From: Cliona cf. orientalis
Lineage: Eukaryota; Porifera; Demospongiae; Clionaida; Clionaidae
Reading direction: 5' to 3'
DNA: 64,000 nt
Assembly (NCBI GenBank): GCA_963930775.1
Contig: OZ005690.1
Coordinates: 7,920,225-7,984,224 of the forward strand
A model generated the notes under the pieces. It was not told the DNA's origin. It was given only the letters and a program-made list of their open reading frames with translations, and did not search any database. The position numbers were made by a program, and so were the translations under genes. The number at the start of each line of letters is the position of its first letter. The stretch's first letter is position 1. Positions 1,189-21,564 of this stretch are shown piece after piece.

Positions 1189-2038
1189 ATGGCTGAAGTA
1201 AGTGGATTAGACGTCCCACCTGAGGTTGATTCACCTGTCACTGTGGAAGTTGATGCAACTATTGCAAGTGAGGAGGGCTTGATATCAGCTGTGGCTGTGG
1301 CTATAGACAGTGGTGATACTACTGAGGTGGAGATTGAAGAGCCGGAGCCAAAACAATTTACGCTTGTATTTCAGCCTCCTCGTCCAGACAAATACACTTT
1401 GGAGATTAGATGGGGTCCGAATCATGTTTATGGTAGTCCATTGCACCTTGACCTTCGCCCACCAAATGCTAAAGCTGTCACAATTGCTGAGCCCCCTGCT
1501 GGAAAATTAAAAGCGGGTCAACCAGTAAAGATGTGCTTTGATACATCCAATGCTGGTCGAGGTGAGATGTTATGCACATGTAAAGGAGAGGATGTGGGAG
1601 AAATTAGCGTTGATGTGGAGCGAAGGGACTTTACAAACAAGTTTGATGTCAAATTCAAACCACCACATGAGGATGAGTATATTGTCCATGTTAAGTGGGC
1701 AGAAAGGGGTATTAAAGGATCACCATTCAAAATTGACCTCATTCCGGTTAATGCCAACAAAGTGACAGCATCTGTTCCGATAGTACCTGTAAATCCTGAT
1801 GATCCAATTGAAATCGATATTTCAACAAAAGGAGCGGGAAATGCCGAGCTTACAGCTGAATGTGTTGGTACTAGATGTGAAAAGATTCCTATCAGTATCA
1901 TAAAAATTGCTGCACATGACTATCGCATCTCTATAGCTCCCCCCATGAGGGATGCGATTTCGATATCCGTGCTCTATGGAGGAAAGCACATACCTGATTC
2001 ACCATTTACTATCAATACCCTGCCAACAAGTGCTCAAG
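1189..2038 (+). other. Exon 1: three filamin-type Ig repeats
   Basis: The ATG at 1189 opens 283 codons. The segment holds three tandem repeats of about 90 residues. Each ends in the filamin signature: YGSPLHLDL near residue 90, KGSPFKIDL near 185 and PDSPFTIN near 277. Each also has the PP..D.Y...V.W core. Filamin repeats are beta-sandwich protein-binding modules. No actin-binding CH domain precedes them, so this is not a filamin. The donor GTAAAT follows codon 283 in phase 1. Read-through would end at 2094. Confidence 0.85.
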
Positions 2039-5000
2039 GTAAATTACATGTATGTGTAATATTATTTTATCCTGCATGCATGCACAAGGGGTGAAGTAAT
2101 TGATTGTGTTGTTGTCGTTATCGTAAGCACAAATCACCACATCTCAAGATCTAGGCATCTGAGCGACTCGTAAACACGACACCATCAAATTTGGTAAAAA
2201 ACTGGCTTCGGTATGATGCACACAGCCCACATGTGTACAAAATATTATTAACAGTGCCTTTTTGTTGATTAGCATAGCCACACCTATTGTCAGTGCCTAC
2301 TCCTACTCTATTGCGTAATACATGTACATGCAGGCCAAGTGCTTTCTACTTACGCATACAACTAATTACTCTGTGTGCAGGCGAGGTACCGTGTTTATGC
2401 TAATAGAACGCATGATCCAATTACCGCAAGAAAATTCAATTCCAGGAATTGTTTGTATTCTACTAGAACGGAAGCGACTGTCTGTAATTATTTTCTACGA
2501 ATCCAATTAGCGCAATAGTGCTAAGGTGAGGCTATTGCGCATGCTCAAACCGCGTGCTGCACGGTTAAACCACACCTGCTTAGTAATAAACCGTTCTGGA
2601 AGCCTCAATATTATATCTCGCTCTGTCTCTCGGACTCGTTGCTAGCTATAGTTAACCAAATCGCAACTGTCGTTCGTCGTTCATGAGGGTACTAAACTAC
2701 ACTCGGGACTGACCTTAGTTGGAACTGCACTAAGTCCAGCCGCCAGGGCCTCAGACTCAGCGGCGATCAGCACGATTCAGTGGCATCGCTAACCATGCGG
2801 CGCGGCTGTCAGAAGGCCTTTCTCAGGCTACCCTCGTGATGATCGGGACCAGGGGCACAGGTACGATACCATCGATAGCCACTATTCGTCGTCACTCAAA
2901 GCTATGCTAATAATCTATTACAACGCAACATCTAATTAACGCAAGAAAATTCACTTCCTGGAATTGTTTTGACTCTAATTGTGCGCAAATCAGATTTGAA
3001 ATTATTTTTTTTGCTTGCGTTCTATTAGAATAAACACGGTAATCCGTTTTATCTGTCATCTAGGCATCTGAGCATTAGTATGCTTTGAATCGTTTGGTAA
3101 GGCCCACGAGCATCGCAACTATTTCGTTTGTTGGGCACACCTATTGATACTATCCACTATGTGCTTTCTGCTCATGCGCACAACCTGGCACCATATGTAG
3201 GTAAAGATTGTCAACAGGCTGCTGGTATGGAGCTCTCTGACATAGACGCTGCAGCACGCACAGGGTAGTTAGCCTATTAATCTTATACACACTAGTTGAT
3301 ATGTAGTGCTACCTACTGTTTGGCTGCTAGCCGCTGACTAATAATAAATATAGAGAATGTAAAATGCACTATTACAGTTAAGTATAGGTAGTAACAGTCC
3401 ATGTCTTCCTAGATCTTGAGCAAGAGAAAGGATATTTTTGCTGACATTACCATGATATCTAGAATGCTTGTAGCATTTCACAAAATTTTATGCACTCAAA
3501 AGTTTCCAGAATTCAGTATTGTCATCTCTGTATATACAGATCGATGCTGATGCTGCAGTGCGCGCATGGGATACATACAGTGTACACGTATGTGCTCTAC
3601 AGAGCTGTATTTTAGCAGTAAATCATTTTCACCTTTAAACTTGCTCTCATAGTGTGGTAATGTTATGACTAAAAATTGTAGCACTCTTTTGTGCAAAACC
3701 CTTGGTACAATGTGATAGCTAGCCTACACAAAATTTAATGACAAATAATTTTTGCAAGCTAAGCCCGCATGTTAGATCTAAGATACGAAGAATGCATTAG
3801 TACTGATTGCACACCATTTAATACGCAATAGTATCACAAGCATGGCAAATTGGTACAAAAAAGTAAAGCCAAGCAGTGTATAGTTGATTGTCTACTATGA
3901 CCAATGACGACTCAGTCGAGTTATAAGAACTATTGCTAGACCTACACTAGTCTTCTTAATATAAAGTAGTCGCCATCTCTTGTATCCATCGAGACGTCAA
4001 AGAAGTCAGTCAGTGGTGATTAGGTCAGCAAATGTGGCCATAACTTTCAAATAAAGCATTTTCAATGAAATCCACATGATGTGTATGTTGAAAATTCCAT
4101 AAGAAGTCTAAGGACACACATACGCACTCGTAACCCTTGAGTATGTGCCAAGGCTTAAAGTAGGCATGGCAGGGCCAAATTAAAAGTACACAAACAAGAT
4201 TTGTTGGGATAATCACATCCACTATGCTTGCTTTTATTGATTATCATGCATCTAACTTGTTTGTTAATTAAGTGCTCTTGACTTGCATGTGGGTCAGACG
4301 TTACTGGTTGTTTTTGCACTCCTCAAAAAGGGATGTACAGTGGATATGATTATCCCTACGAATCTTGTTGTATACTTTTTGGCCATGCCATCCCTACTTC
4401 ATCCTTCAATTTTCTTCAATTGTTTTTATATTTATTTCTGTTCTTTTTTTATTGCTCTCAGTGTAATTCATCAATGCCATCTTACATGGTTTGCTCATTC
4501 AACTGTCAATGGGCCAATATAATTAAGTAGAAGATGGGAGGTTCCGTGTGTGTGCAAAATTCGTAGCCATCCCCCTCATTGACTTGCGTTCCTATGATGA
4601 TGAAGGCTGCTTTAGGTGGTCCAAGTAGCAATGAGACTCTTCCATTTAGGGAGAAAACCAAGTTCTAAGTTTATTGTTGGCAGCAGCTACGATATTTTTA
4701 TGACCTGTGCGTTACGGCCTACGTGCACACTGTACATACGTAGGTTCCCAGCCTTGCTGTAAAAAGTTAATAACCTTTCTCAACCTCCCTCCCTCCTTCT
4801 CTAGCTCTCCCTTTCTCTCTCTCTCTTTCTCTCTCTTTCTCAACTTTCATGATAATATTATTATTATTGTGCTATCAACGATAATGCCTAGAGCCTTGTG
4901 CCTTATGATCGATCCAGCGGAGCACTAGCGTTGCACGTGCTAGTGAGTAGCTCGCCTAAGCCTAGCACCTTACCGCTCCTCAAGCTCTGCAACTTCATAT

Positions 5001-8000
5001 CATGATCGATCTAGTGGAGCATTTAGTGCTGCATGCGCAAGGTAGTAGCTCGCCTATGACTAGTGCTTACAATGTAGCACCTAGGCTATAGGACCAAGGT
5101 ACTGTCACATAACTTAACCATGGCAATACATTCTGAGCATGCGCATTATATCACAAATGGTGTATCAGTCACACCCAATTGTCAATGCGCCGTACACACC
5201 CACTATTACGTAACTGTCAAGATAACGCAGAATTAGCATGTCACTGCAGTGCATGCTACAAAAGGGAATGGATTTATACTCAAACTAAGATGAGAGGTGG
5301 AGGCAGTCTTGAGCTGGCCCAAGAAACTAATGACAAAATTAATGGCGATTTTGAACTGGCCTCGTCCCCAGACCACTCCCATGTTTTCAATGTTGCACGC
5401 AGATAAGGGGGAGGGTCTGGTATGCAAAGTAACGTGCGCCATGTCACAGATAGACAGAAGGTACAAAAGGTATAGACAGAAGGTCTGGTGTATTGCAGCA
5501 GGTTAAACACAGTGATATGCATGATTGAACGACTGTGATAATCTGCTGTATCCTTTAAGGTTCCCAGAGTCTGAGGGAGCATGATCTTTATTATCTGCTG
5601 TAGCAATGTATCCCTGGCCAAGTATGCAAAAATCAGTGGAGTAGGAATTAGCGGGGGGGGGGGGGGGGGGGGGGGGGGGGATCCTTGCTGATCTATTGGG
5701 AAATCCAGTCCCCTTGGCCCCCTGATTTCCACTCCATTGAAAACGGTGATTCTTGAAGCAGCGACATACATGTAGCTATTGGGAAATTTCTGACCTGGCA
5801 TCCAATTATATATACTCCCACATTTGCAGATCGAAAGAAAAAATACTGGTTGATTTGATAGGTTGAATTGTAGGTTTGGTAGGTGATTTGTCAACCTCCT
5901 TTTAATTGGTCATGTTTCAACCATGGTGATAATTTTCATTCATACTGCATATGAGTATTGTAATAGCATATGCATGTAATTTGCATTCAAATACGTTGAA
6001 TAGTGTGTCAAGATTATGGGGCTATCGGCATGTACAGTGTATGCTGTGGTATACGTGTACGTGGTAGTGAAATTCATAATTTGCCACAATTATGGTGCTA
6101 CAAAATGAGCCTTGCTTTTAGGTGTTGTTCATTAGTTTTCAATATCCCCAGGATTTTCAGAGGTTATGTCTGAAGATGAATTTGTGGACTACTTGAAGGA
6201 AAAGGGACTGAGCACAATAGACTCTTCTAAATTGATTGGTACGTTAACTGATTTCACTAGACCTATAAATGCAGCTAACAGGATACTCAGCACAATTATT
6301 TAAGTTGCTTGAGTGTGCTAGTATAGGCCAAGCATATGCTATCCACTATGATAGATATGAAGTATACGATCCAAATTTGCAGATAATGGTATTGGAGCAC
6401 AGCAGTTCGTGCAATTGACTGATGAGGATATTGATGATGAACTTGGCTTTAGCTCTGGTGGAAAGACAATCCTGAAGCGACTTCTCAAGACTTTCAGTGA
6501 GTTATACCATAGTAGACTTACAGTAGGAGGCATAAAAACGGTGACTATTACGTTTAAACGGAAACACGTGGCCATTCTGTTCAACAGAAAACAGGAATTA
6601 AATAGGAGCGACAAATGGTGCGACTGACTACGTGAACCGTAGCTAGCTCGAACTACATGGCAGAGGAGTCCAAGAAAGCAGAAAGAGTACTGCTTCAGTT
6701 AATCTGCTAGTTGTAGAGGCGATTTGAATTGATCAGTGATCCGAGGTCGATCGATCGACGATAGCAAAAATCGCTCACAGTCAAGTGGCGATCATGAAAC
6801 ACGCTCAAATCAGAAGAGCGGCAAAATTAAAATTCGCCAATCTCGCTGATAGGCCAATCTGCCAAATTTAATTCCCACCAAATTTTCTGGCTATATGGTG
6901 TCACATGCTGCTCATGGCGGGTAAAGGCGTGCCTCTGTGGTTTATGATTGTACATGCGTCAGCATTAACTTGGCCCTCTTGATAGTGATGTTAACTTCGG
7001 TTTACACTTGTAGACCCCATCTTTGCTATATTACATTCAACTAACTATTGAAGCAATTATTACCCCACATGCATGCGTACGAGGGTAAAGAGGTAGTTAT
7101 TGTAAGCACATAGATCTTCATATCTGAGACCTGAGTGACGCGTAACGGTAAGCATAACGAATTAAACAAATTCAATGAGAAACTGGCTTCAGGATCATCA
7201 GCATCACAAATAGTGCCTTTTGTTAGCCATCATAGCCACACCTATCAATGGTGCCTGCTCAATGCATGACACATGCAGGTGATGTGCTGTGCACAACCTT
7301 ACTGGCCTAATATATATGTACTGGTCAAGATCCACAAAGTTTATGCTAGTGGCATGCTGGCTGAAACTTCCAGAATTGTGGCATTGTCATCTCTGTAGCT
7401 ACAGATTGTGTGATTTGCACATAGGGTACGGGGTATGTGCTCTTGTTATTAATATTACTGAAGCAAAATCCATTATGACCTACTTTTTAATTATCCAGAA
7501 ACATCAAATGATGATTACAGTGTTCCCAAGGAGATTCAACGTTCTGGTACGTACATGACATTGTATGTATGTATAGATATCAAGTATCAACCAGACCTAC
7601 CATACTCGCATAGCTACATGTATGCTGACAGCAATTGCACAATGAACATTGGTGTTTTCGTATTCCTTAGACGCATTTCAAGATTTGGTAGCTACCCACA
7701 CTCTGCTATAGTTGTGGAAGCCTCTAGCAGATGTATTGAAGCTGCATGAACTGAGTAGTCTTCTTCATCGAGCTCCTGCCAGATTCGGTACTATAGCGCA
7801 TGACCGTTTGGTTGATTGAAACGTGTACATTTAAACTCGCTGTTCAGACTATTAATATTCGAGTAGCTAGACCCAGTATGGTAATGCATTATGTGTCGTA
7901 CCATTACATATAGGTCAGGCAGCCACTGCTGAAGCATCACCATCTAAGAAAGAAAGACCTCATATCATTCCTCAAGGTATTCAAACACTATACCATATCC

Positions 8001-11000
8001 CTTGTAGCTGCATAGTAGTATTGGTGCATATGATGGGTCATCAATAATATAGTGCATGCACTAATTGTGGAGATGGAGTCTGAGACTGACTCTTGACCTC
8101 GATAGTGATGGACAGGTATAGTCAGAATCTAAATATGGATGAATATTTCCATATAAAATCAACCATGTTTGGTTACTGGTATGTCAGAATCATCCATATT
8201 TGGATGATTATTACATAGCTCTCTCTATAGAGAGGCTGATGTCACCTATAATCATCCAATATTGGATGATTCTGTTCATCCAATATTGGATGTGGCCTGT
8301 TTCTTCCATTATTGGATGCTTTATATCATCATTTTCTGGATGAAACTTATATGATACAATTATCATCCATTGTTGGATGTAACTTGTCATCATTTTCTGG
8401 ATGAAATTATATGAAGAAACTATCATCCCTTACAGGATGATTCTTGCCATCACTTTCTGGATGAAACTTACACAGTATAATTATCATCCATTGTTGGATG
8501 TACCGTAAATCGCGAATATTTCGATGTTAAAATATTTTCGGACAGATGGCTTGTGCGAAAATTGAACGCATGAAATACATGCGCAATATTAACGACAATG
8601 CGGTACAGGGTGGTTTGTCCAAAAATTATTTAACGTGAAAAATTATTGCATGAAATATTTTAGACACGAAATATTCGCGATTTACGGTAGCTTGTAATGT
8701 CACCATTGTCTGGATGAAAATTATGTAAGGAAACGATCATCCCTTACTGGATGATTCTTTCCGTCACAGTACAATTATCATCCATTATTGGATGTTGTCT
8801 TGTAATATTTAAGGCATTTTAAAAGTAGTAAATTTACATAATACATTAAAAGCTGATATTAATGCTACAACTGTTACTTCAACTTATCTCAAAGCAAGAG
8901 GTGTTGGCTCTTGGCTGAAAGGATCGTAATATCGTTGTGGCTTTTTGCTTGGTGGGATTCTTGTATTCACTTCAGCTCCTTTGGTATCATCATCACTCTT
9001 TAGCCGGCTGTAAATATCTGGCATGAGCCTACCCGCAGGTGAATCCCTGGGTGGGGGCTGTGGCCAGGTAGCACAGATGTATCTGCACGGCTATCTTGTG
9101 AATCTTCCTGGACAAAAGTTTCTGGGTTGAGACCATAGCAGTATCTTAGAATCTCCCTCAATCCATCACTCCAATTGCCTGCAATTAATGAACAGAACAT
9201 GGTATTCATGGGCAGTATAATATTACAGTAGTAATAATCTGTGCAAGTACCTTCATAGTTTTCAGGAGCACTGGTTACATTCCCGAAGGGAATACGAGAT
9301 GGCCACCAGACGTAGTCTACCAGCTTACACAGCTTATCAGTGAACAGCCCACCGTGCCCCAGAGGATCAAGATGCCTGCTGAAAGTATTCCTCCAGCCAT
9401 CCAATGCTCACTCCTGGGATTTTTACCATCTTTTGCCCCCACGGAGTGTGCTGTGGATTTGAAGTCATGCGTTTGCATGAGTCACTGAAGCACCAGTTTG
9501 AGATTTTCTCCACTCATTTTGAAACACCTTCAGTAGCAAGCCAATGCGGGGCTACAGTGTATAAAGGGATAAATTGCGTACATGAAACCAGAGAATTTTA
9601 TGTTTCACGTTAAATTATTTCTAAATAATAAAGGAGGAAAAATAGATGTAGGAAAACTGTCATTATAATTAATAATATTATATCACTGTAGAATTACATT
9701 TATAATACATAATTATATTCATTGTTGAACTTGCACAATGACAGAATGAATTAAAGATTCTTCCAGAAACTGATGACAAAAAACATCCAACAATGGATGC
9801 TAAATTTATCATACAATTTTTATCCAAAAATTGATACAAAGAAACACCCAATGATGGGTGATAATTGTATTGTGTAACTTTCATCCAGGAACTGATGTCA
9901 AGAAACATCCAACAATGGATGATAATAATAATTTAAAATACAAATCATCCAAAATTAGATGATTTCATAAGTGATGAAATAATCATCCAAAAATGGATGA
10001 TTTTATATGGAAATTTCATCCATTTTTGGATCAGGAACATACCTCTGACAGATCTCAATGCTACAATTTGCAGAGATAAGCTTGCGACAGCACAATATTG
10101 CATGTATATTACATGTATGGATGATCTCCCTGAAGTAGTCCTGGCCTTGTATGTGTATTGAGGTGACGATTTTAATGTCGATTGGATTTTCATGTATTTA
10201 TGATGTTTTTACACCGAAATGTTTCCTCACCAAGCAGATTATTGTACATACATGTAATATTCCAGTTACAGTACGTGTATGGCCGCATGATTATTACCAT
10301 TTTTAATTATTTTACATTGGAGAGATAGGTTTTTGGGGTGGGAGAGCTTCAGCTATGAGCAGTATTTTATTAACCCTCGGCGCATGTGTGAGGGTTACGG
10401 TAGTTGTTCTGTGTGTCTATGTGTCTGTCTGTCACCAAACTAGCTGCTATATACATTGTACCTCGTTTGCAAGTCTAAACTGTGGTGTTATACGATTCCT
10501 TATGGCGTTCCAAACATGCATTGTGTGGATTCCGCTGAAAACACTTTGTTTGCCTGTTTTGGCGTCATTTGCTGATTGTAAGCTTCTTGACTTTTCCCTA
10601 AGCGGCACTCAACGTTCTATTTATATGAAAGGTCATGTACAGGTGCTGTATATAGTATGCTCAGCGCATGGGCGAGGTTTAGTGAAAGTCCGGCCCACTG
10701 AGTGAAGCGTGTGTCTTGAGCTCGCAGTTTGCAAAAGCCTATCTGGTGGCAAAGTGTCGTCCTCTACCACTGATTATAATTATAATAATTATATAGCCTA
10801 TGCCTCTACTTACTTGGTTGTCTACCACGCCTGTTCAACGCATGTTTCATTGGCGATCATTACCAATTTCATGAAGAACCTGATTGCTTTTATCCTTTGC
10901 TGTGCATGCCACAGTCAACACATTCATTATTATGAACAACAATAGTACTTAGGCTTAGTGCACTTGTGCTGAGCGTTTCGCACCATAGTGGTACTCACTT

Positions 11001-14000
11001 GATGTCAGCACTGCAGTACAAAGTTTCATAAAACAGCCACCATGGTTGTTGTTGCTGCTAGCCATTGATCTTCGAACAATACTGCTATGCTAGCTATAAC
11101 ATTGTATTGTCGTTGCCTGTTTGTTCAACTAATACCATATGCACGCAACACGCCGAGGGTTTGGTGCTCTAGAGAGCTCTAGTTAAATTTTGAAAACAAT
11201 TCAGTACCCTCAGGTCATATTCTGACAAGAAGAGAGCTGCAAGTGCTGTCCACTTTACTTGCTACATATAGCAGTGAGAAGTTAAAAGAGATCAAGGTTG
11301 CTCTTCAGGAGGATGAAAGTGGAGATATCTCACGTGAGGGAGTTGAAGAATCACTCAGGCAGAATGGCCTAGCAACAATTGCTAATGGATTAAAAGAAAA
11401 TTTGCAGAAAGGTACTGTAACAACATTCTGTTTGTTGCTAATTACTATGCAAAAGTGGTATCTTACTACTCAAAAGATGGCCCATGAGTGGTACGTGTTA
11501 CCTTCATGCATTAATTATTATTGGGGTGAGCCTGAGCAAGCCCCAAATAAATTACTGCACGGTGCGAATGTGACCGATATAATTATGGTACGTCGGTCCT
11601 TAGTTATGCTCTGCCCCACGTCAGCTGGGTCGGTCATTCCATATAATTTGTATGGTGTTCTAATTTAGCAATATATTTGATGTAACTTTAACATAATATT
11701 GTGCGGCCGGCCGTGCGTGCATGCACAAAACGTATAATTAGCACCTCAACCTTGGCTGGGCCCACTGCCAAATTTAAATTCCGCCAATATTTATAAATGC
11801 CCGGTATGGAGCCAAAATGCAAAATTAAATGACCGCCAATATTTCCAGCTTTATTATGGTTCTGATAATACCACAACTACAGACATGCTTGTCATACAAA
11901 CTAGAATGATTGCACAAACAATGAATGGCTAGTGACCAGTTCTTTTAAATCTGGAGGAGATTTCCATGGTCACTGCATATGTTCACTGTGCTCAGCTTTT
12001 GCACTAAGCAATAACTACCTATGTCTGATGCTAGCCACCTAAGTATCTACAAGAGAGTCTATGATTATTGGACTGAGCATGTCATGCAGTCAATTAGACT
12101 CTAAAACAGAATCAGTTGGTAAGCAGTGACATTGGTATCTAAGCAAGAATTTATGATGTATTCACTTTCTATACTCACCTGGCTAGATATGTTTTTATAT
12201 TGTAAAATCATTATAGGTGTTGAAAACATGGATCATTATGAAGCGTACAAGGAAGCTCTTGAGGGTGGACTACGACTCACCTTGAAGTACCTCAAGTTCC
12301 TATTTCTTGGTCCACCTCGTTCTGGTAAGACATCAATGCGACGGCGCCTCGTTCAAGAGATCATTAATCTCGCTAAACTAGGACAACCGTCAAAGAGCAC
12401 AGGAGTAGCTGAAACGAATGATGTGCTGATCAAAAAGCTTGTTAGTGAGTCAGCAGTGATTGCTGATTCGATGTGGCATTCACTAGAGATGTCTAAAGGG
12501 GAGAAAATTGAAGTTGATCCTGTAGGAAAAGAGTCAGACATCACATATGTTGTGCAGTTGTTTTACCAATTAATTTCAACTACCGCTCCAACTTCTTCAA
12601 CTTCTACTACAATCATTACCACTCCAGAAAGTGCAGAGAAGAATGATGCCCCCTCAGGTGTAAAGAGAGAAGTTAAGCGTAGGAAAACAAATGAATTAAG
12701 TGATTCAGAGAAGATAGAGATCAAGGAAGCATTTGAAAAGCTCACAACAATCCTTCAGTCTGACACTCCAGAAGACCTTCGAAAACTACTCGAAGATCTG
12801 ACAATGATCAATATGGTTGATGTTGGTGGTCAACCTGCATTATTAGAAATGTTGCCCGCTTTTACAATAGGTCCAGCATTATATTTCCTCTTTTTCCGCC
12901 TTGATCAAGAGCTAGACAAAAGATATCCAGTACGTTTTCATGCAGCTGATAGTGAAAAAGAAACAACTCTTGACAGTTCATACTGTATTGAAGATACTCT
13001 TTATCAAGCCCTATCCAGTATTGCATGTTATGGATGCTGTAGCTCCCAAGAGAATTCGGCATCCAGTCGTGTGTTGCTTTTTGGTACATATAAAGATAAA
13101 GCCAGTCATTTACAGATTTCGAGAGCGAATGATTTGCTACAAAAAAGGCTTGTGAAAACTGAGCTATATGATGGAAGGAAATATCATTTGGTTCTAAGAG
13201 CAAAAAGAAATAGCCTTTTCTTCCCTGTTGATAACATGAACGGGGATGAGGCAGAAATGTTAGAGATTCGCTCAGACATAGAAGGAGTAATCAAAAGCCA
13301 TTTTTCAGCCACTGAGATTCCAGCATCGTGGCTAATGTTTAGAATAGTCCTTCACCTCCTACACAAGCCAATTCTTGGCTTAGCTCAGTGTCAAGCAATT
13401 GCAAAGCGTCTTTCTATGCAGACACCAGTGCAGGAAGCTCTTTGGTTCTTTCACCATAATATTGGGAGTATAATGTACTATTCTGATATCCCATCAATGA
13501 AGGACACTGTCATCTGTGACCCGCAGGTTATCTTTGACAGTGTAAGTAAGCTGATCATCAATACGTTTACGTACAAGAACAGATCTCTTTCATCAAAAGA
13601 AGTTGATGATTTTTATGAAAAGGGTCAGTTTTGCCTGGCACAGATTAAGGATGAAGCTGAACAACAACAATGCAGTAGTCTTACAGGCAAACAACTTGTG
13701 GATATAATGAAACATCTCAATGTCTTGGCTGAGATTGCACTTGATCAAGAAGTTGCACAACCAGAATCAGATCAACCACGGCCAAAATTTATCATGCCAG
13801 CAGTTCTCAAGTTTGCTTCAGAAAAAGAGTTGCAGCTCTCAGCTTCAAGCCAGTATATTTCAATCCCTCTTATGATACGCTTTAAGGGTGGCTTTGTACC
13901 TTTTGGTATCTTCTGTGCCAGCATAGCTCATTTGATAGCACACCAAGACACCTTCATTCCAAAGTGGCAGCTACATAGTGAACAAGTGATGCGGAATAGA

Positions 14001-17000
14001 ATTAGTTTCAATGTTGATAGGGCATTCAAAGTCACACTAGTTTCTCAACCGCAGTGCATCAAGGTCCAAGTATCAAAGCATCCGAAAGGAAGGAGCAAAG
14101 AAACACTATCGACTATTTGCTCTAAAGTACGTGAAACCATAGTCAACACACTTACAGGAGTGATTTCCAAGATGAAGTACAAACTGTTTTTGCCCGAGAC
14201 ACCAGTGCTTTCTGAACAGCCATTTGATCTGGCTTTCATATGTTGCATGGATGACTCCCACTCCGATCACTTGATGATAGTGGTTGAAGTTGAAGGTGAA
14301 AGCTGTGCTCTATGTCCCATTGACGACATTTCATTTGAGCTTAATAAAGAGCACCATTTCTGGTTTGGTATGGTAAGTTGAATCATCCATTAAAATAGGC
14401 TTTTCCAAAATAATAGCATACAGCGCCATTATTGACCACCAAACGTACCGCAAGTAGAACTCCTCACGCATAGCTAGGTCTAATGATCATGAAGCTTGCA
14501 CCAGCTCAAAGGGTGTGCTTTACCCAATGGTACCTGTTTAGACTATACCTACTACCACAATAGGCTTCGAGCAGTGCTTCATGCAGTGGAGCTATCATTG
14601 GACTAATATAGTACTTGACCTTACATCATTTATCGACCTCTGAGAATACCTTCATATTATTTTTTGGTGTAGACACTTTTGTAAATTATTGATCCCACTG
14701 TGTCCTTTTGTTAAAATGATGCATGTGTCTGACCGACAATGTTGAAAAATTTGTGCACTTTTTATGTAGCGCCTGGCTGTAGAGCATGGGGAAATAAAGC
14801 ATCGACTTTGACCTCCAAATTTTTTGCCTCTCAATGCCATTAGTGCAATAAACATATTCATAATGGAAGTGATGGTAAGTATTGGGCAGTGCAATATGTG
14901 GCCAGTTGAGGTCAAGTCCAGATCAACTTGACTCGCGCCCCAATATGCCATACTGAGCATCGATATGCCTGAGATTTATAATGTGTACTAGTCAGTAATC
15001 AGCAGTGTACGCCACAGTAGAACCCCACCTTGCAGACACTTTGTCTGGTCCGGAACACCATCTCCATAGACTTGCATATAATCAGTACTCCTGAAATGCG
15101 GCCACCTTGCTACCGTAGGTCGGATTTTAATTGCGAGTATCTATTAATTGCGAATTGTGAGTTTTTATACGTTTCGCAATTAATAGATTCGCAAACGTAA
15201 ATGTGCACGTATACTACAGTACAGTACGGGGTCGTCTATCGCAATTATTGGATTCGCAATTTGGCCGGACTCACAATTATTAAACTAAAACCCGTCCTAC
15301 GGTATTCCATAAAGCAGACACTTGGCTTGACCCCAACAGTCACAATCATTGCCCATACAAACTCACCCTTATAGCGGACACTTTGTCAAAAATTCATAGA
15401 CTCACTTGTAAAGCAAATAACAAGAAGAATGAATGCACAGGAGTGCAAAACCCTCACCGCTACACGCATGCATGACTCATGCACATGTAGATCTATAGTA
15501 GCTAGCATATCTCAGTGTGTCTGCCTGCTCAATATCATAGAGTCGGTAGACTCTATAAGTAGGGATGGCCCGGATATGCCATATATGTAATACATTACAA
15601 ATACCCAAATATCTCAAAATCGGTAATTTTATGAAATTTCTAAGTGTGAGAATCAGAATCTCCAGCAAATTGTGCATCTAACAAGACCAAGATCATTCAT
15701 CAAAACAGTTGTACACGTCAGAACCAGATGTTCAAAAAATAGGCCATTTCTCATTCTTTCTTTCTTCTTTCTTTCTTTCTAGTTTCTTGGGCTAGCTCAA
15801 GACTGCCTCCACCGCTCATCTTACTTTGAGTATAAATCCACTCTATTTTGTAGTGCGCAGTGCAGTGGCACGCTAGTTATGCACCTGTCAACGGTATGCC
15901 CCACTATCCCCCTCCCGCGCAAAACCAAGGGGTACCAAGGGGATTTTACAGGAGAAGCTGGACATAGGGTGGGGCATTTGATTTTATTCGTAAATTAGAG
16001 GGTGTGGCTCACGAGACTATGATTGCCACGTCATAACAGAAGGAGCACGAATGCAATCAAATCCCCTATGTTCCCCTAGGATACACTAGGTACTGAATAG
16101 GGGATTTGACTTCAAATATTGCTCCGACCCTGGGGCAATTGAAACGATCAATGTCAAATCCCCTAGTATGCCCCTACTTGGAGCGGGAGGGGGATACTGG
16201 GGCATACCATTGACAGGTGCATTAGTCGTTATCTCGATAGGACGTAATAGTGGGCGTGTACGGCGCATTATCGAATGGGTGTGTCTGATACGCCATTTTT
16301 ATGATATAATGCGCATGCTCGGAATATGTTGCCATGGTGAAGTCATGTGACAGCGCCTGGCCCTAGGCGCCTAGGCGAGCTGCGATACTAGCTCGTACAT
16401 CGCTAGCTCGTGCAACGGCGCCGGCGCTGGACCGATCATGGATATGAAGGTTCAAGGCTCGAGGAGCGGTAAGGCGCTAGGCATAGGCGAGCTACTCGCT
16501 AGCACTTGCAGCGCTAGTGCTATGCTGGATCGATCATAGATATAAGTCATACCATCGCGATACGAAGGCGCAAGGCTCGAGCAGCGGTATTTTAATAACG
16601 TACAGATCATAAAATTATGCCGGGTAGCTAGCTGCTGCCGACAGTAAAACTTATAACTTAGTTTTCTCACTAAGCGTTAAGTCTCATCACTACTTGGGCC
16701 ACCTAAAGCACTGAGCCTTCTTGGTCATCCTGTTCATCGTCATAATAATTATGAACGCAAGTTAATGAGGGGCGTGGCAAAGAATTTTGTGCACCTCCCA
16801 TCTTCCACTTAATCAGAAATTGTGAGCAAACCATGTAAGATGACATTGATAAATTTCACTAAGTGCAATAAAAAAGAACAGAAACAAGTATAAAAACAAT
16901 TGAATAAAATTGAACAAAAAAGTAGGGATGGCAGGATCAAAAAGTACACAAACAAGAGATAATTGCATCTACTATACATCCCTACGCTTGCTTTTTGAGG

Positions 17001-20000
17001 GGTGCAAATATGACCAGTAGTAATGCAATTGAATCAAAACTGATAAATTCAAACCATCGTGACAACTATAGGGAACAACCTGCACGAATGTTTCCCACAT
17101 ACTGCACTCAACAAACACATCAACCATGATTAATAGGTGCACAGTAGTCGAGAAAAGTAAGCGTAGGGATGTATAGTAGATGCAATTATCTCTTGTTTGT
17201 GTACTTTTTGATCCTGCCATCCCTACTTCTTTGTTCAATTTTATTCAATTGTTTTTATACTTGTATAAGGAGTATTGAACTAGATACATACTACCATAAT
17301 ATTATGGTAGTATGTATCTAGTTCGATACTATTAGCTATGCATATCCTGCACCTGAGGTACTCCAGTTTTCTTCAGAGTCAGTGCATGATATAGGCTAGG
17401 GGGAAGGCACCTGCCTATGTCACTATAATTATATCTGTGACTACTTAATTAAACTCAATTATGCACTTGAGAGCCACTGCCTGTTTACACTGTCACTGCA
17501 TTGACAACTGACCAGCAAGGCACGGAATGGCAACCACAGCTGCACACTATTATACCACTGGGCAGGACTTAACGTGACCACTCTTCCTTGATGCCTGGTA
17601 ATCCTCAGATGCGTACTTTCTCTCAGACGACCCTTACCATACGGACGGACGGACGGACAAAAATCGCCAAACGATTGCAGTAACCCTCCGCCTACGCTTT
17701 GCGGCAAAAGGTTAACTAGAGACGATATTTTAACATCAATGGGGCGAGCCTCCGCGAACCCCACACAAGTACAAATGATTTGGTATACATGCAGATCGGA
17801 ATTAATTTAATGATTGACTCGAGGGAGTGGAAACTATGGTTAGGCCCCTCCAAATCAATTAGTAGTTTCTCATCCCCTCTGAGCTCAAAATTGATGCGGG
17901 CGGGCGGTGGTAATGGTCGTCAATATGTGTAATTTTTGATGGAAATGGTCGTCAAAATCGCTTGCAAAAAAGGATGCGGTATACTTTTGCATTGTGCTCC
18001 TAATCACAAAATGCATGCGGGCGGAAATTAAGGGGGGATGAGAAACTACTAATTGATTTGGAGGGGCCTTAGCTTAGCTCGGAACATGTCTCTAGCTACT
18101 CATAGTACTAGTTCAGCAATGATTATTTTGCTAGCAACAGTCACTTGTTCTTGATCTTTTTAGGGCCTTGAATCGCCTTGAATCTCACATGGACCCTCTG
18201 CACTCAAAATGTTCCGCTCTGCCTGGCTAGAAAGACATATTTTCTCTGTAGCCTTGCCCCTCTCAGTATGAGTCTCTGCAGCTCTCCTTTCGAAATTTCT
18301 GATATTTGTTTCTGCGTTTTCTCAGTCTTTTTTCCTTTTTAGCCGCTCGATGTCACAGGGCTTGCCCTCTTTCTCTAGCTCTACGTTGAAGTATTCGCTC
18401 CACTCTCGCGCTTTGCTTGTTGTATGCGCATGCGCGTAACGGATGAATATTGCATATTGTTGAAATAGAAGACGGGTACATACGGAATGACGGACGGCAG
18501 ATATATACATATACCACACAAACGGAAAATCTCGATTGACTTCACTTGTGTGGGGCTCACTTCGGCTCGCCCCAATTATAGCACTACAAGTATGCTAGTA
18601 CTGCTAATCTTGGTGTTCATAACCTTCAGCAGCTTCCATGTGCTTCACTTGTGAGGTCACAGGTAACATTTCATCATCAGTTATAGTGGAAAGCCACATC
18701 CACTATACATATTTCAACTAGAGCTCTGTAGAACACATACCCCGCGCACACATTGCACAATCTATGGAGTTGCTTTTGTGTGCATGGCTATAATAATTTT
18801 GTGAACTTCAGAAAATTAGTGGAAATATATGCTGCTTTTGTACGTAGCTACCGGAGGTCCCAGTGACAAAAAGCACTCTCTCTGCACCAGATCTAGACTA
18901 CTAGGAGATATGAACTGATACTTGCAATATTTATTGTAATAGTATAGCCATCTTACATTATGATTTAGCTCCATAGGGTTGCAGATTTCAGCTCTGTGGA
19001 TAGATTATGGATTTCACAAGCATTATTAATTTCGACGATCTTTACCAGTCATATTCTTGGCTACTTGGTTGTGTGCATGAGCAGAAAACACAATGGGCAT
19101 GCTTTATGCATTGAGTAGGCACTGTCGATAGGCGTGGTTACATTAGCTAACAAAAAGGCACTATTTGTGACGCCCGTGGACCGTGTCCATCGATTTGACG
19201 CACATTGAAGTTTTTCGCCGAATTCGATTGTCAATGATTTGTTGTGTTTACGAGTCGCTTAGATGCCTACATCTCAAGATATGGTGTTTTTTTGCTCAAC
19301 GACAACGACAACGACAACGACATGACCGATTACTTTACCCCTTGCGCATGCGCATGGGGTAATAGCCAGAGGACACCTAGCTAATCTAGCCACTTGTATT
19401 CAGTCCCAAGGGTGTCTGAATTATAGGGGTTCCACTGTATATGCGTACATGTGTTGTTGCCTGGGGAATGTCTTGGTGCGCACAGGCACCCTGTGTCACA
19501 AACGCTATATAGACTGCCTCAGAAAATTATCATAATATTATTGCATAAAGCTACAGCCCATTCAGTAAAATCATATTATACATGCTCAAGGGGTAATCAT
19601 GCACACTCCAACTGCTCCCAAGCCCACACACCTGCCAAGCAGTCCCGTTAACAAGTATAGTTACTTTAAGCCTGAACAAGATGGACAGCTGGCTCACCCC
19701 CAAATGCTTTCACTGCACTGGGATTTCAATCGCCTACAAGTCGCAACCCCGTAATGTCTCCCGGCTTTGCATGCCCTGTCAAGGATTAATTAGGTGGGGG
19801 TTACAGGTCAAAGGTCACTATGTGTAGGCCAGAGCATTATATCTCCGCGCGCCCACCATTCCACATGTATATTAATTAATATTATTATTGATAGCTACAA
19901 GCTAGATCTTGTTACACCAATCTGGCATTATTTCTCTCAAATGAAAAATAATAATTCATCATAATGATGAATTATTATTTTTCATTTAATGCATTATTTT

Positions 20001-21564
20001 TCATTTAATGCATTATTTCTCTCAAATGAAAAATAATAATTCATCATAATGATGAATTATTATTTTTCATTTAATGCCAGATTGGTGTAACAAGATCTAG
20101 CTTGTAGCTATCAATAATAATGTTATGACTACCCAATCAAGAAGTTCTCTGAAACGTTATATTAATTAATGTTATGTAAGTTGCTATGTAATAATGAATG
20201 TAACAGTTGCATGAGGTTTAACCACAAGAGATTAAACCAGGTTACTGTGAGTGGGAGGCACATGCGGAATGGGCTGGTCATGTTGCCCGGACATGCGCAG
20301 CTCGGCGGCGCGATCATCATATTGGCGCCGGTGTGAGGCATAATATGTGCATGCATAATGGGAAGGAGGAGCTGATTGGTCAGTTAATACTTATAGGAGA
20401 GCTGTTACCTTAGGATCGGGGCTAAGGATGCCGTCATCAAACAGTAAGAGCAGCTGCAAAGTGGAAGGAGAGTCATTTAGCTGGTGCCCACCCTCCCACC
20501 CTATACTTGTCCACTGAGGGATGATGTGTTTCCTTCAGTGTGATCAGTGCCGAGATAATGTATGGGAGTGGGATTCAGGATCCCATTTCGAGTGCCCTCC
20601 AAGTCAGTAGATGGATGTTGCCGGCTTTGCATGCTCTGTTGAGGGTTAAGTAGGTGGGGCTTGCAGGTCAAACGTCACCATGTGCAGGCACGTGACACGC
20701 CCCAGCCCAGGGCCGGCCAGATTGTTATATCTTGGCGCGCCCGCTATTCCACATGCACAAGACTTGATTAATGTTATGGAAATTGCTATGTAATAATGAA
20801 CATAACAGTTAATTCAAAAAATTAATAATAATGGTTCAGGTGTGCAGTTATTGTGCAATTGGTGTGTGCACGTAATTTTGCCCCCTAGTCTCTCCCACCT
20901 TTAAGCGTGTACATACAACATTGAAAGCTAGGAGCATAAGGAATATTTTCACTACATACGCATGTGCTACACAAACCGCTTATTGACATTATACTTATGA
21001 ATTTCTGGTGGGATTAGCAACAAACAGAGATTTTACAGTCATTCTTAATTTGTTTCCAGGATGATCAATACAGAGGCAAAGCTCAAATATTCGGAGGTAG
21101 GCTGCTTATTAATGCTGGATAATAATGAAGTTTGAAATGAAGCATATCGGCGAGAAAACTGAAGTATTTAAGCATAGATAACTAGACATGAGCTCTAGCT
21201 ACATAAAGAGAAAAATATTGTCTTGCCCATCCAACTTTGTATTTAAGAACTATGTATCAGTGACTCTCTTCTTTTCCTCCACAGAGACTGCAGAGACCGT
21301 ATTAAGCATTAATGATTTACAAAAAATCATTGATCAGACTTGGGATGCCCGTTCGCAGTGGTACAATGTAGGTCTGGGTCTAGGTATCTCGGCTGATAAC
21401 TTGGATGCAATGCAGATAGACAAACAAGGCAACTGTGGTGCTTGCTTCTGTGAAATATTTAAAAAGTGGAAATCATCGTCGACCAACTTGGAGTCTACTG
21501 GCTGAAGCCTTAGAGAGTCCATCAGTGGGAATGGCTGAGCTTGCTAATAAGATAGCTGCCATGT
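1189..21564 (+). CDS. Filamin-Ig / SAM / Roc-COR-like GTPase / Death-domain signalling protein
   Basis: Nine exons can be chained by GT/AG sites and matching phase: 1189-2038, 6152-6238, 6383-6496, 7499-7546, 7914-7976, 11214-11411, 12217-14372, 21060-21096 and 21285-21564. Introns 1-6 are all phase 1, the seventh phase 0 and the eighth phase 1. The product is about 1,277 residues. It has three filamin-type Ig repeats (about 1-283), SAM (about 284-350), a charged linker, a helical segment (388-453), a Roc-like GTPase with Walker A GPPRSGKTS at 485-493 and DVGGQ at 655-659, a COR-like region, and a C-terminal Death domain. Proteins mixing Roc-COR with Death or SAM modules are known from sponges, cnidarians and lancelets and are thought to act in innate or apoptotic signalling; that role is inferred here. 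The Death exon needs a one-base shift to stay open, so the annotated end is uncertain. Confidence 0.8.
2387..3041. mobile_element. TACCGTG-type inverted-repeat element, 655 bp
   Basis: The left end, TACCGTGTTTATGCTAATAG, is the inverse of the right end, which reads back as TACCGTGTTTATTCTAATAG. The similarity continues inward as AACGCA. A TA dinucleotide flanks both sides if TA is counted as the target duplication. The centre is GC-richer than the host intron and contains no recognisable gene. A 143-bp relative sits at 47325-47467. It lies in intron 1 of the Roc-COR gene. Confidence 0.8.
4060..5335. repeat. Dispersed repeat, inverted partner of 15775-16965
   Basis: This stretch of intron 1 is the reverse complement, with divergence, of 15775-16965 in intron 7 of the same gene. 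Shared landmarks are the block ending CTTACATGGTTTGCTCA, the block AAGTAGAAGATGGGAGGT, the block GATCGATCCAGC, and the block GATTTATACTCAAACTAAG. The part before about 4440 matches the arm of the 16884-17264 element. It is probably a non-autonomous transposon of about 1 kb that is present several times. Confidence 0.65.
5361..5445 (+). repeat. Solitary end of a long-TIR element
   Basis: The sequence CTCGTCCCCAGACCACTCCC and what follows matches the left terminal repeat of the complete element at 55534-55944, including the block GTTTTCAATGTT and CACGCAGA. The opposite end was not found near it, so it is a fragment. Confidence 0.55.
5653..5680 (+). repeat. Poly-G run, 28 bases
   Basis: An uninterrupted run of 28 G lies in intron 1 of the Roc-COR gene. 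The exact length is unlikely to be reliable in a shotgun assembly. Confidence 0.9.
6152..6496 (+). other. Exons 2-3: SAM domain
   Basis: Exons 6152-6238 and 6383-6496, both phase 1, encode about 67 residues with a SAM pattern. The order is FVDYLKEKGL, then NGIGAQQFVQLTDEDIDDEL, then GFSSGGKTILKRLLKTF. The LT.EDL..ELG core and the G...ILK closing helix are typical. SAM domains form homo- or hetero-oligomers, so this one could gather several copies of the protein. Confidence 0.75.
8501..8689. mobile_element. TACCGTA-type MITE, 189 bp, nested in the fold-back element
   Basis: The ends TACCGTAAATCGCGAATATT and its inverse AATATTCGCGATTTACGGTA are perfect over 20 bases. Both inner parts carry further AAATATTTT-like inverted matches. 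It interrupts one arm of the surrounding fold-back element and is therefore the younger insertion. There is no coding capacity. Confidence 0.85.
9000..9404 (-). CDS. Unidentified reading frame inside the fold-back element
   Basis: The minus strand is open for 134 codons, and the frame stays open upstream past 9404. A likely intron at about 9170-9251 (donor GTACTTG, acceptor TTAATTGCAG) would join ...SAPENYE to GNWSDGLREILRYC. The conceptual product is rich in Trp (DYVWWPSRIPF, EHWMDGWRN). I do not recognise the family. Its position in the middle of a transposon suggests a remnant of the element's own protein, but this is inference. It could also be captured host sequence. Confidence 0.3.
   Translation of the reverse strand: MDGWRNTFSRHLDPLGHGGLFTDKLCKLVDYVWWPSRIPFGNVTSAPENYEGTCTDYYYCNIILPMNTMFCSLIAGNWSDGLREILRYCYGLNPETFVQEDSQDSRADTSVLPGHSPHPGIHLRVGSCQIFTAG
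11214..11411 (+). other. Exon 6: helical segment of the Roc-COR gene
   Basis: The exon adds 66 residues in phase 1. It reads as two or three amphipathic helices around the acidic loop QEDESGDISREG. The loop loosely resembles an EF-hand, but the glycine is misplaced and only one loop is present. A degenerate Death-fold helix bundle is the other possibility. Function is unassigned. Confidence 0.5.
11700..11855 (-). repeat. Dispersed repeat copy with TTTGGCGG-like ends
   Basis: Read on the minus strand, the block GGCAGTGGGCCCAGCCAAGG followed by GAGGTGCTAATTAT matches 56400-56440. The flanking AATTTAATTTGGCGG type motifs also occur at 6810-6900 and 56345-56850. It is a non-coding repeat in intron 6. 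Confidence 0.6.
12217..14372 (+). other. Exon 7: Roc-like GTPase plus COR-like region
   Basis: One 2,156-base exon encodes residues 454-1172. The Walker A motif GPPRSGKTS (485-493) follows a hydrophobic strand. DVGGQP (655-660) is the G3/Walker B position. FGTYKDK (742-748) may serve as G4. A Ser/Thr-rich insert followed by a basic KRRK stretch lies between G1 and G3. The rest has the COR-like pattern FIMPAVLKFAS, then IPLMIRFKGGFVPFGIFCA. The acceptor TTATAG precedes GTGTTG, and the donor is a consensus GTAAGT in phase 0. The GTPase would act as a regulated switch for the flanking SAM and Death modules (inference from the Roco family). Confidence 0.8.
15111..15304. mobile_element. TACCGTAGG-type MITE, 194 bp
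   Basis: The left end TACCGTAGGTCGGATTTTA pairs with the inverse of the right end, TACCGTAGGACGGGTTTTA. Inside, GCAATTAATAGATTCGCAA-like blocks occur in both orientations. The length is close to the 189-bp element at 8501, but the internal sequence is different. No gene. Confidence 0.8.
15775..16965. repeat. Inverted duplicate of 4060-5335
   Basis: The stretch is the reverse complement of the intron 1 repeat, about 11 kb away in the same gene. It has been split by a smaller inverted-repeat insertion at about 15885-16222. Differences are spread along the whole length, so the pair is not a recent copy. Confidence 0.65.
15885..16222. mobile_element. Inverted-repeat element inserted in a repeat, about 338 bp
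   Basis: The left end ACCTGTCAACGGTATGCCCC and the inverse of the right end, ACCTGTCAATGGTATGCCCC, match at 19 of 20 bases. The match continues as TATCCCCCTCCCGC. The homologous repeat at 4060-5335 lacks this segment, so the insertion can be seen against an empty copy. Confidence 0.75.
16884..17264. mobile_element. Element with about 112-bp terminal inverted repeats, 381 bp
   Basis: The ends ACAAGTATAAAAACAATTG (16884) and CAATTGTTTTTATACTTGT (to 17264) are perfect inverses. The arms remain nearly identical to about 16995 and from about 17153, through CAGGATCAAAAAGTACAC. The close identity suggests a young copy. Related arms occur near 4150-4440, 35745-35870 and 37959-38600. Confidence 0.85.
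17271..17330. repeat. 60-bp near-perfect palindrome
   Basis: The arms meet at 17300/17301 with one mismatched pair; the centre is CCATAATATTATGG. It begins six bases after the end of the 16884-17264 element. It could form a hairpin or cruciform. No gene is implied. Confidence 0.85.
17400..17720. repeat. Dispersed repeat, copy 1 of 3
   Basis: Landmarks are GCACTTGAGAGCCACTGCCT, ACTGACCAGCAAGG, a GGAC microsatellite, and AAAAATCGCCAAACGATTGC followed by AGTAACCCT. The same order is found at 23760-24060 and 50035-50450. The CGGCG...GGGTTA end also appears near 10370, 25495 and 57465. Non-coding. Confidence 0.7.
17842..18069. mobile_element. AGGCCCCTCC-type MITE, 228 bp
   Basis: The left end AGGCCCCTCCAAATCAATTA and the inverse of the right end are identical over 20 bases. 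The match continues as GTAGTTTCTCATCCCC. A related, larger copy with ends AGGCCACTCCAAATCAATC lies at 38079-38545. The interior has GCGGGCGG motifs and no gene. Confidence 0.8.
19020..19360. repeat. Dispersed repeat with ACGACA microsatellite
   Basis: The copy includes GTTTACGAGTCGCTTAGATG, CATCTCAAGATATGG and GAGTAGGCACTGTCGATAGG. Related pieces are at about 2095-2330, 3050-3260, 7070-7440, 22060-22460 and 57400-58160. It ends in CCCCTTGCGCATGCGCATGG, so it carries an NRF-1-like palindrome at 19344-19353. Non-coding. Confidence 0.6.
19756..20815. repeat. Direct duplication, one copy interrupted by a palindrome
   Basis: The stretch 19756-19880 plus 20161-20215 is repeated at 20618-20815. Shared blocks include GGCTTTGCATGC, AGGTCAAAGGTCAC-like sequence, TATTCCACATG, and TTGCTATGTAATAATGAA. 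The second copy runs straight across the place where the first copy is interrupted at 19881-20160. Confidence 0.7.
19881..20160. mobile_element. Palindromic insertion, 280 bp, with flanking ATTAATTAAT
   Basis: Bases 19881-20121 form an inverted repeat. Outer arms of about 50 bases begin ATTATTATTGATAGCTACAA and hold two direct copies of an inner palindrome, with 22-base arms around ATTCATCATAATGATGAAT. The element is bordered by ATTAATTAAT at 19871-19880 and again at 20161-20170. The paralogous copy at 20740-20790 lacks it, giving an empty site. There is no coding capacity. Confidence 0.8.
21060..21564 (+). other. Exons 8-9: Death domain with an apparent frameshift
   Basis: Exon 21060-21096 joins in phase 0 to the Roc-COR exon and ends in phase 1. 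Exon 21285 then opens with TAETVLSINDLQKIIDQTW. The Death-domain pattern follows: SQWYNVGLGLGISADNLDAM, CFCEIFKKWKSSS, then, one base out of frame, PTWSLLAEALESPSVGMAEL. The shift falls between about 21470 and 21482 and could be one extra A at 21482. Without the shift the frame ends at 21504, losing helices 5-6 of the domain. A consensus donor GTAAGT follows ATGT at 21564, so at least one more exon is expected. Candidates are a sequencing error, a recent null allele or a true truncated form. Confidence 0.65.

Follow-up and report, generated by a model that had tools for sequence, protein, structure and literature searches.

A predicted gene with filamin repeats, a SAM-like domain, Roc-COR, and a frame-broken Death exon within the expanded Roco family of the sponge Cliona cf. 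orientalis

In the demosponge Cliona cf. orientalis, we describe a predicted nine-exon gene in which filamin repeats and a SAM-like domain stand in front of a Roc-COR GTPase and the first part of a Death domain. The gene lies within what we call here the window, that is, the entire stretch of 64,000 nucleotides that was analyzed (C2:7920225-7984224, in a genome of 217 Mb and 149 contigs). On balance, we favor the interpretation of these exons as one exon-shuffled Roco gene, in which a Roc-COR-Death core acquired a filamin exon and a SAM module of two exons at its front, and we consider a single gene, as opposed to two, to be likely.

Gene model and domain assignments

All nine exons have AG/GT borders and join in phase (Table 1). 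The junctions are in phase 1 through exon 7, in phase 0 after exon 7, and again in phase 1 ahead of exon 9, and the joined exons 1 to 8 are free of stops for 1187 codons before exon 9 is reached. The preliminary description of this locus had nine exons joining in phase, and its borders and phases stand, but exon 9 does not stay open to position 21564. Three introns of the gene are long (4.1, 3.2, and 6.7 kb), and repeats lie in the last two of these. In the intron ahead of exon 6, we found an element of ca. 1.9 kb (window positions 8114-10044), the long arms of which are inverted (ATCATCCA-type units), and in the intron ahead of exon 8, there are MITE-like hairpin elements (16884-17264 and 19877-20125) with arms that are 98% complementary. 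Elsewhere in the window (45417-60729, forward strand), six ORFs carry SRCR domains and perhaps belong to one multi-exon scavenger-receptor-like gene.

Table 1. Exons and domain features of the predicted gene (window positions)
Feature	Position	Strand	Description
Exon 1	1189..2038	+	Start codon, three filamin repeats, 283 aa, phase-1 donor
Exon 2	6152..6238	+	SAM-like domain, first half
Exon 3	6383..6496	+	SAM-like domain, second half; donor GTGAGT
Exon 4	7499..7546	+	Short linker, phase 1-1, predicted from splice-site form
Exon 5	7914..7976	+	Short linker, phase 1-1, predicted from splice-site form
Exon 6	11205..11411	+	69-aa module ahead of Roc; conserved in the family
Exon 7	12217..14372	+	Roc GTPase and COR, 719 aa
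Roc G1 (P-loop), GPPRSGKT	12309..12332	+	G32, P34, R35, G37, and K38 invariant in 20 sequences
Roc G3 motif, DVGGQP	12819..12836	+	D, second G, Q, and P invariant in 20 sequences
Roc G4-type motif, TYKD	13086..13097	+	THKD/THRD in L035/L037; T and D invariant in 20 sequences
COR-A homology	13320..13592	+	Pfam COR-A, E value 1.2e-7
Exon 8	21060..21096	+	Linker, phase 0 in, phase 1 out
Exon 9, readable part	21285..21505	+	Death, first part, then frame lost; TGA at 21503-21505
Death remainder	21477..21563	+	Out of frame; matches RPTW..LAEALRSPSV of relatives
Exon 9, full extent	21285-21564	+	Donor-like GTAAGT at 21565

The donor of exon 7 lies at a codon border right after a conserved Trp, and the same holds for 15 of 17 paralogs (judged by eye). 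Exons resembling exon 8, with the same phases and an Asp codon at the start (DEQ.., DKNG..), follow Roc-COR in 7 of the 17 paralogs, as found with a lenient pattern and with slight sequence likeness. For the linker exons 4 and 5, no homologs were found. The interval in which they lie contains 145 phase-1 exon candidates, and only 6, exons 4 and 5 included, pass the splice filter; this is a weak test, since the donor list of the filter was composed with these two exons in view.

It is extremely improbable that the model consists of unrelated ORFs strung together by chance. Such an artefact would be compatible with exons 4 and 5, which were recognized solely by the form of their splice sites, but exon 1 contains three filamin stretches of certain identity (Pfam E value, 2.1e-30), the close paralogs of the Roc-COR exon match it with E values of 5.4e-199 or lower, and both exon 6 and the Death exon have rightly placed paralogs, which makes this explanation unlikely for exons 1, 6, 7, and 9.

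Among the domains named in the preliminary description, filamin and Roc-COR hold, Death is supported by its family but frame-broken, and SAM is likely but weak. A profile search had been expected there to return filamin, SAM, Roc/COR, and Death in this order. With Pfam, the window chain gave filamin and a weak COR-A, while SAM and Death went unmatched, so that the latter two assignments derive from relatives. The same scan of the window chain gave no kinase, NACHT, or LRR.

The Roc-COR-Death core and its paralogs

Exon 7 has at least 75 matches in the genome (62 of 536 candidates were scored). Nineteen of these loci are close paralogs, namely, L010 to L027 (18 loci, at 55 to 59%) and L028, which matches in two pieces (63% and 53%); one of them, L016, has a stop inside the matched Roc-COR stretch. 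We aligned the window sequence with 17 of the 19 close paralogs (L016 and L028 were left out) and with the more distant L035 and L037 (alignment A1, 20 sequences). COR-A was matched in all 20 (E value of ≤0.1). In the window chain, the Pfam COR-A match scored 32.2 bits, under the cutoff of 35.3, and in the genome search, the match at the window scored 35.3 bits and was marked as over the cutoff. Pfam Roc was weak (E value of 0.13 in the window, with matches in 2 of the 20 A1 members and a best value of 0.013), and the A1 profile retrieved a single PDB chain, a leucine-rich-repeat protein, at an E value of 0.055. Judged by its family, the Roc-COR identity of exon 7 is nevertheless certain. The dN/dS ratio of this exon was 0.10 to 0.13 in three of five pairs and saturated in the other two. 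Over all pairs compared, saturation was the more frequent outcome, and we therefore rely on differences by codon position; both exons 1 and 7 diverge from their relatives mostly at third codon positions.

Across the genome, the COR-A profile gave at least 150 matches (290 candidates), three of which are under the cutoff, leaving at least 147, many of them in ORFs of 1400 to 1700 aa; these figures are matches and not counted genes, since split genes and dead copies may be among them. The Roco expansion in this genome appears to be very large.

Every close paralog (19 of 19) has, by position, a Death or SAM exon downstream, within ca. 3.1 kb and on the same strand. In eight of them (L012, L014, L015, L016, L020, L023, L024, and L027) it is the Death type of the window, in seven (L013, L017, L018, L019, L021, L022, and L025; the match in L017 contains a stop) a second Death type, and in four (L010, L011, L028, and L026, the last by one weak match with an E value of 7.5e-5) a SAM-like exon; relatives with SAM-like exons after Roc-COR are found on contigs C4, C10, and C3. 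Pfam support for these downstream exons was modest: the first Death type reached 1.7e-6 at best, and the values for the second Death type (1.5e-4 in L013, 0.032 in L017, and 0.034 in L035) and for the SAM of L010 (0.21) were all under the cutoffs. When 23 pairs were hand-picked from the lists of COR-A and second-type Death matches, 22, L035 among them, had both domains in one ORF and one frame, with Death downstream. Other combinations occur as well: in L029, Roc-COR precedes a Death-like exon (Pfam, 0.0083), which is in turn followed by a SAM-like pair, L038 looks alike, and L030, L031, L032, and L036 have two successive Death exons. Together, these arrangements suggest that C-terminal modules have been exchanged among the Roc-COR paralogs.

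Two further domains were seen at these loci. A RING finger exon (Pfam C3HC4, 1.7e-8) occurs in L028 (C10:3128859-3133421, minus strand), where it stands, on the strand of both its neighbors, after the Roc-COR exon and ahead of the SAM-like one. In L027, a TNK-type SAM exon (positions 4944-5195; Pfam SAM_TNK, 2e-12) comes right after the Death exon and probably belongs to a neighboring gene.

Exon 6 is likewise shared. Besides itself, it has 19 matches, at 59 to 68%, 18 of which are upstream of a close Roc-COR paralog on the same strand; the distance to Roc-COR is within 2.3 kb in 16 cases and about 7 and 9 kb on C10 and C7. The remaining match, at C2:14081344 (59%), has no listed Roc-COR beside it, nor is one listed between it and a second-type Death exon at C2:14092521 (89%, one stop). 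Against PDB profiles, exon 6 matched weakly, the best hit being a kinase chain (E value, 0.009) that bears an EF-hand. A calcium-binding EF-hand was set aside as an identity for exon 6, given the weakness of this match and a loop that lacks the usual ligands of the EF-hand pattern.

The Death identity of exon 9 is supported by its family, with 34 to 49% against seven Death domains of relatives and as much as 55% when the genome was searched. Pfam Death matched seven of the eight sequences of this set (alignment A3; E value of ≤0.1, best 1.7e-6), and the eighth, the half-domain of the window, was unmatched. The chain had earlier been drawn through the entire Death domain, and as assembled this continuity fails. 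The first part of the domain ends at TGG 21467-21469, the frame breaks between 21,470 and 21,482, and the remainder (RRPTWSLLAEALESPSVGMAELANKIAAM) continues in a different frame. The loop between the conserved TGG and the CCA of PTW is 13 bases long in the window. Among relatives that stay in one frame, it has 12 bases in L015 and L016, 18 in L020 and in the C13 copies, and 21 in L014, L027, L033, and L034. The window exceeds the shortest of these loops by one base and falls short of the others by five to eight. The view that the break is incompatible with a one-base error was rejected on the comparison of 13 with 12 bases in L015 and L016; the break may be a real loss, may be allelic, or may stem from a sequence error of one base.

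A decaying chimera, in which the exons are real but this copy lost function beginning with the Death frame break, would account for the break and the stop at 21503 as well as for the long, repeat-filled introns. The one-base alternative lowers the weight of decay, and we regard it as fairly improbable. No further stop occurs in the codons ahead of exon 9, the Death remainder is still recognizable, and third-position divergence dominates in exons 1 and 7, although the pairwise values mix both branches.

The filamin-SAM front end

Exon 1 appears to have been copied from the beginning of a filamin-like gene that lies on a different contig and to have diverged since. At C18:1933930 (L040, examined over 3.9 kb), there is a filamin-like ORF whose first three repeats are 71% identical to exon 1, with the start codons aligned; unlike the window gene, it continues as filamin repeats to a total of 1420 aa. 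The differences between both copies were 0.22, 0.15, and 0.57 per first, second, and third codon position, a pattern such as would be found between protein-coding sequences long apart, with the branch that carries the constraint not distinguishable in pairwise values. Filamins have N-terminal actin-binding CH domains. No CH domain was matched by Pfam in the predicted chain, and exon 1 opens directly with repeats. Among the 80 other listed matches of exon 1 (137 of 147 candidates scored), none adjoins any of the 19 close Roc-COR paralogs, and filamin was rejected on this basis as a feature of the whole Roc-COR family.

The SAM-like domain of exons 2 and 3 is split by a phase-1 intron, and the same split is present in L070 and L071. 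Pfam SAM matched neither the window chain nor any of five relatives. In the profile comparison, the best three PDB matches were Caskin-1 constructs (E values of 0.07 to 0.13), and we assume that the part matched is the SAM of Caskin; a SAM domain in exons 2 and 3 is likely, but the assignment is weak. Besides itself, exon 3 has only two matches at an E value of ≤0.001, C14:4148691 (61%, 4.0e-5), where SAM reads into a stop, and C2:14014227 (57%, 9.4e-4), and with just these two, the front SAM was also rejected as a family feature. More distant SAM-like exons do occur elsewhere in the genome. The front end as a whole (filamin plus SAM) would be a property of this copy and not a family trait; given that its filamin and SAM exons have no listed matches by the close paralogs, it is without an independent witness.

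The SAM at C2:14014227, which is of the window's type, lies 1.5 kb 5' of a caspase (Peptidase_C14) domain on the same strand (C2:14015814, 158 bits; L071 covers the start). Two Death matches follow the caspase, also on the same strand, at C2:14016860 (with an internal stop) and C2:14020475. The SAM, caspase, and Death exons of this stretch (14014227-14020642) are a candidate single gene.

The front end is also where a division into two neighbors has to be weighed, namely, a short filamin-SAM gene that comprises exons 1 to 3 and stops shortly beyond them, and an independent Roc-COR-Death gene that runs from exon 6 on and has its own first exons. Such a pair would agree with the filamin and SAM exons having no listed matches by the 19 paralogs and with SAM hits that read into a stop within ca. 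ten codons in L070, L029, and L038. If left unspliced, exon 3 of the window would itself reach a stop at 6,625-6,627, and the early Met of exon 7 could begin a shorter protein. We nevertheless think two genes unlikely, if by no means negligible as an explanation: the SAM end has a strong donor, exons 4 and 5 would keep the phase, exon 6 has no Met, and in L022, two putative short phase-1 linker exons are found upstream of exon 6 (L073, 1,550 bases), within 1.2 kb. The phases, the missing Met of exon 6, and the L022 linkers support one transcript indirectly, while the donor, phase, exon 6, and L022 points are not sufficient on their own to link SAM with Roc-COR. One of the L022 linkers has 86 to 93% DNA identity to the linker between Roc-COR and Death of L012, L020, L023, and L024 and could be a remnant of a neighboring copy; together with the bias of the donor list, this caveat lowered the weight that we give to one gene. 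In the upstream DNA of L010 (with L072), no exon was recognizable.

Known relatives and proposed working

Roco proteins have been studied mainly through LRRK2 and DAPK1. In the part of the source consulted, DAPK1 is described as having a kinase before Roc-COR, no LRR, and a C-terminal Death domain (PMC6337361). DAPK1 and the window gene both have Roc-COR followed by Death, which is frame-broken in the latter, and the position of the kinase in the former is held in the latter by filamin, SAM, and the 69-aa module. For actiniarians, the available portion of the published account gives NG3 as kinase, SH3, Roc-COR, Death, and TIR and NG1 as LRR, Roc-COR, and TIR_2 (PMC5094078). Like the window gene, these have Roc-COR shuffled with immune adaptor domains; the word filamin is absent from that text, and SAM is not mentioned in the same portion of it (PMC5094078). 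Trichoplax has at least 17 Roc-COR genes, with LRR, TPR, CARD, and Death, as told in the sections consulted of a work on brown algae (PMC11378527); these genes are far fewer than here, and those sections mention neither filamin nor SAM as a partner. The brown algal ROCO genes themselves are presented there as expanded, exon-shuffled candidate immune receptors, with 9 to 47 per species (PMC11378527), the upper figure being the highest published ROCO count that we met. Brown algae shuffle LRR exons, as far as the sections consulted go, whereas here whole N- and C-terminal modules seem to have been shuffled, with COR-A matches (not gene counts) numbering at least 150.

In the open-licence literature, judged mostly from listings, we recognized no description of filamin and Roc-COR in one protein, in agreement with the preliminary description, whose author knew of no protein with this domain order. 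Roc-COR with Death is already known, and what appears to be new here is the filamin-SAM front.

GTPase switches of the Roc-COR type work as dimers, and the assemblies that Death and SAM domains build are helical or open. If the nine exons are indeed one gene, exons 6 to 9 would represent a Roc-COR-Death unit that was multiplied in the genome, and the front modules would have been gained through symmetric phase-1 introns. The filamin repeats may bind a partner, e.g., a cytoskeletal or foreign protein, and this binding would free the Roc-COR GTPase dimer to change its nucleotide state. SAM and Death could then nucleate a signaling cluster, which would plausibly reach a caspase, given that the same type of SAM is found just before a caspase domain. 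In the copy as assembled, the Death output would be truncated, and the protein would act via SAM alone or as a regulator, or else its output would be blocked; this view would be void for a break that is allelic or stems from a sequence error. A sensor-switch-adaptor had been proposed for this protein. It fits the family insofar as all 19 paralogs have a Death or SAM exon downstream, but filamin takes the sensor position only in this copy, so that a sensor role for the repeats is one that we infer.

Any likeness to NLR proteins would be of logic only. Tentatively, the genome may hold an NLR-like repertoire in which the Roco switch takes the place of NACHT, with more than 100 Roc-COR genes and exchangeable sensors and Death/SAM outputs; this is possible, although we put it forward with reserve. 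The gene described here would then be a chimera whose sensor came from a filamin gene and whose SAM plug is shared with a caspase, leading to GTPase-gated clustering of the caspase.

The larger point is the size and modular make-up of the surrounding Roco family. Its many COR-A matches, together with the swapped Death/SAM ends, would show Roco used as an animal signaling repertoire, and natural chimeras like this gene would let readable inputs of the Roc-COR switch be compared.
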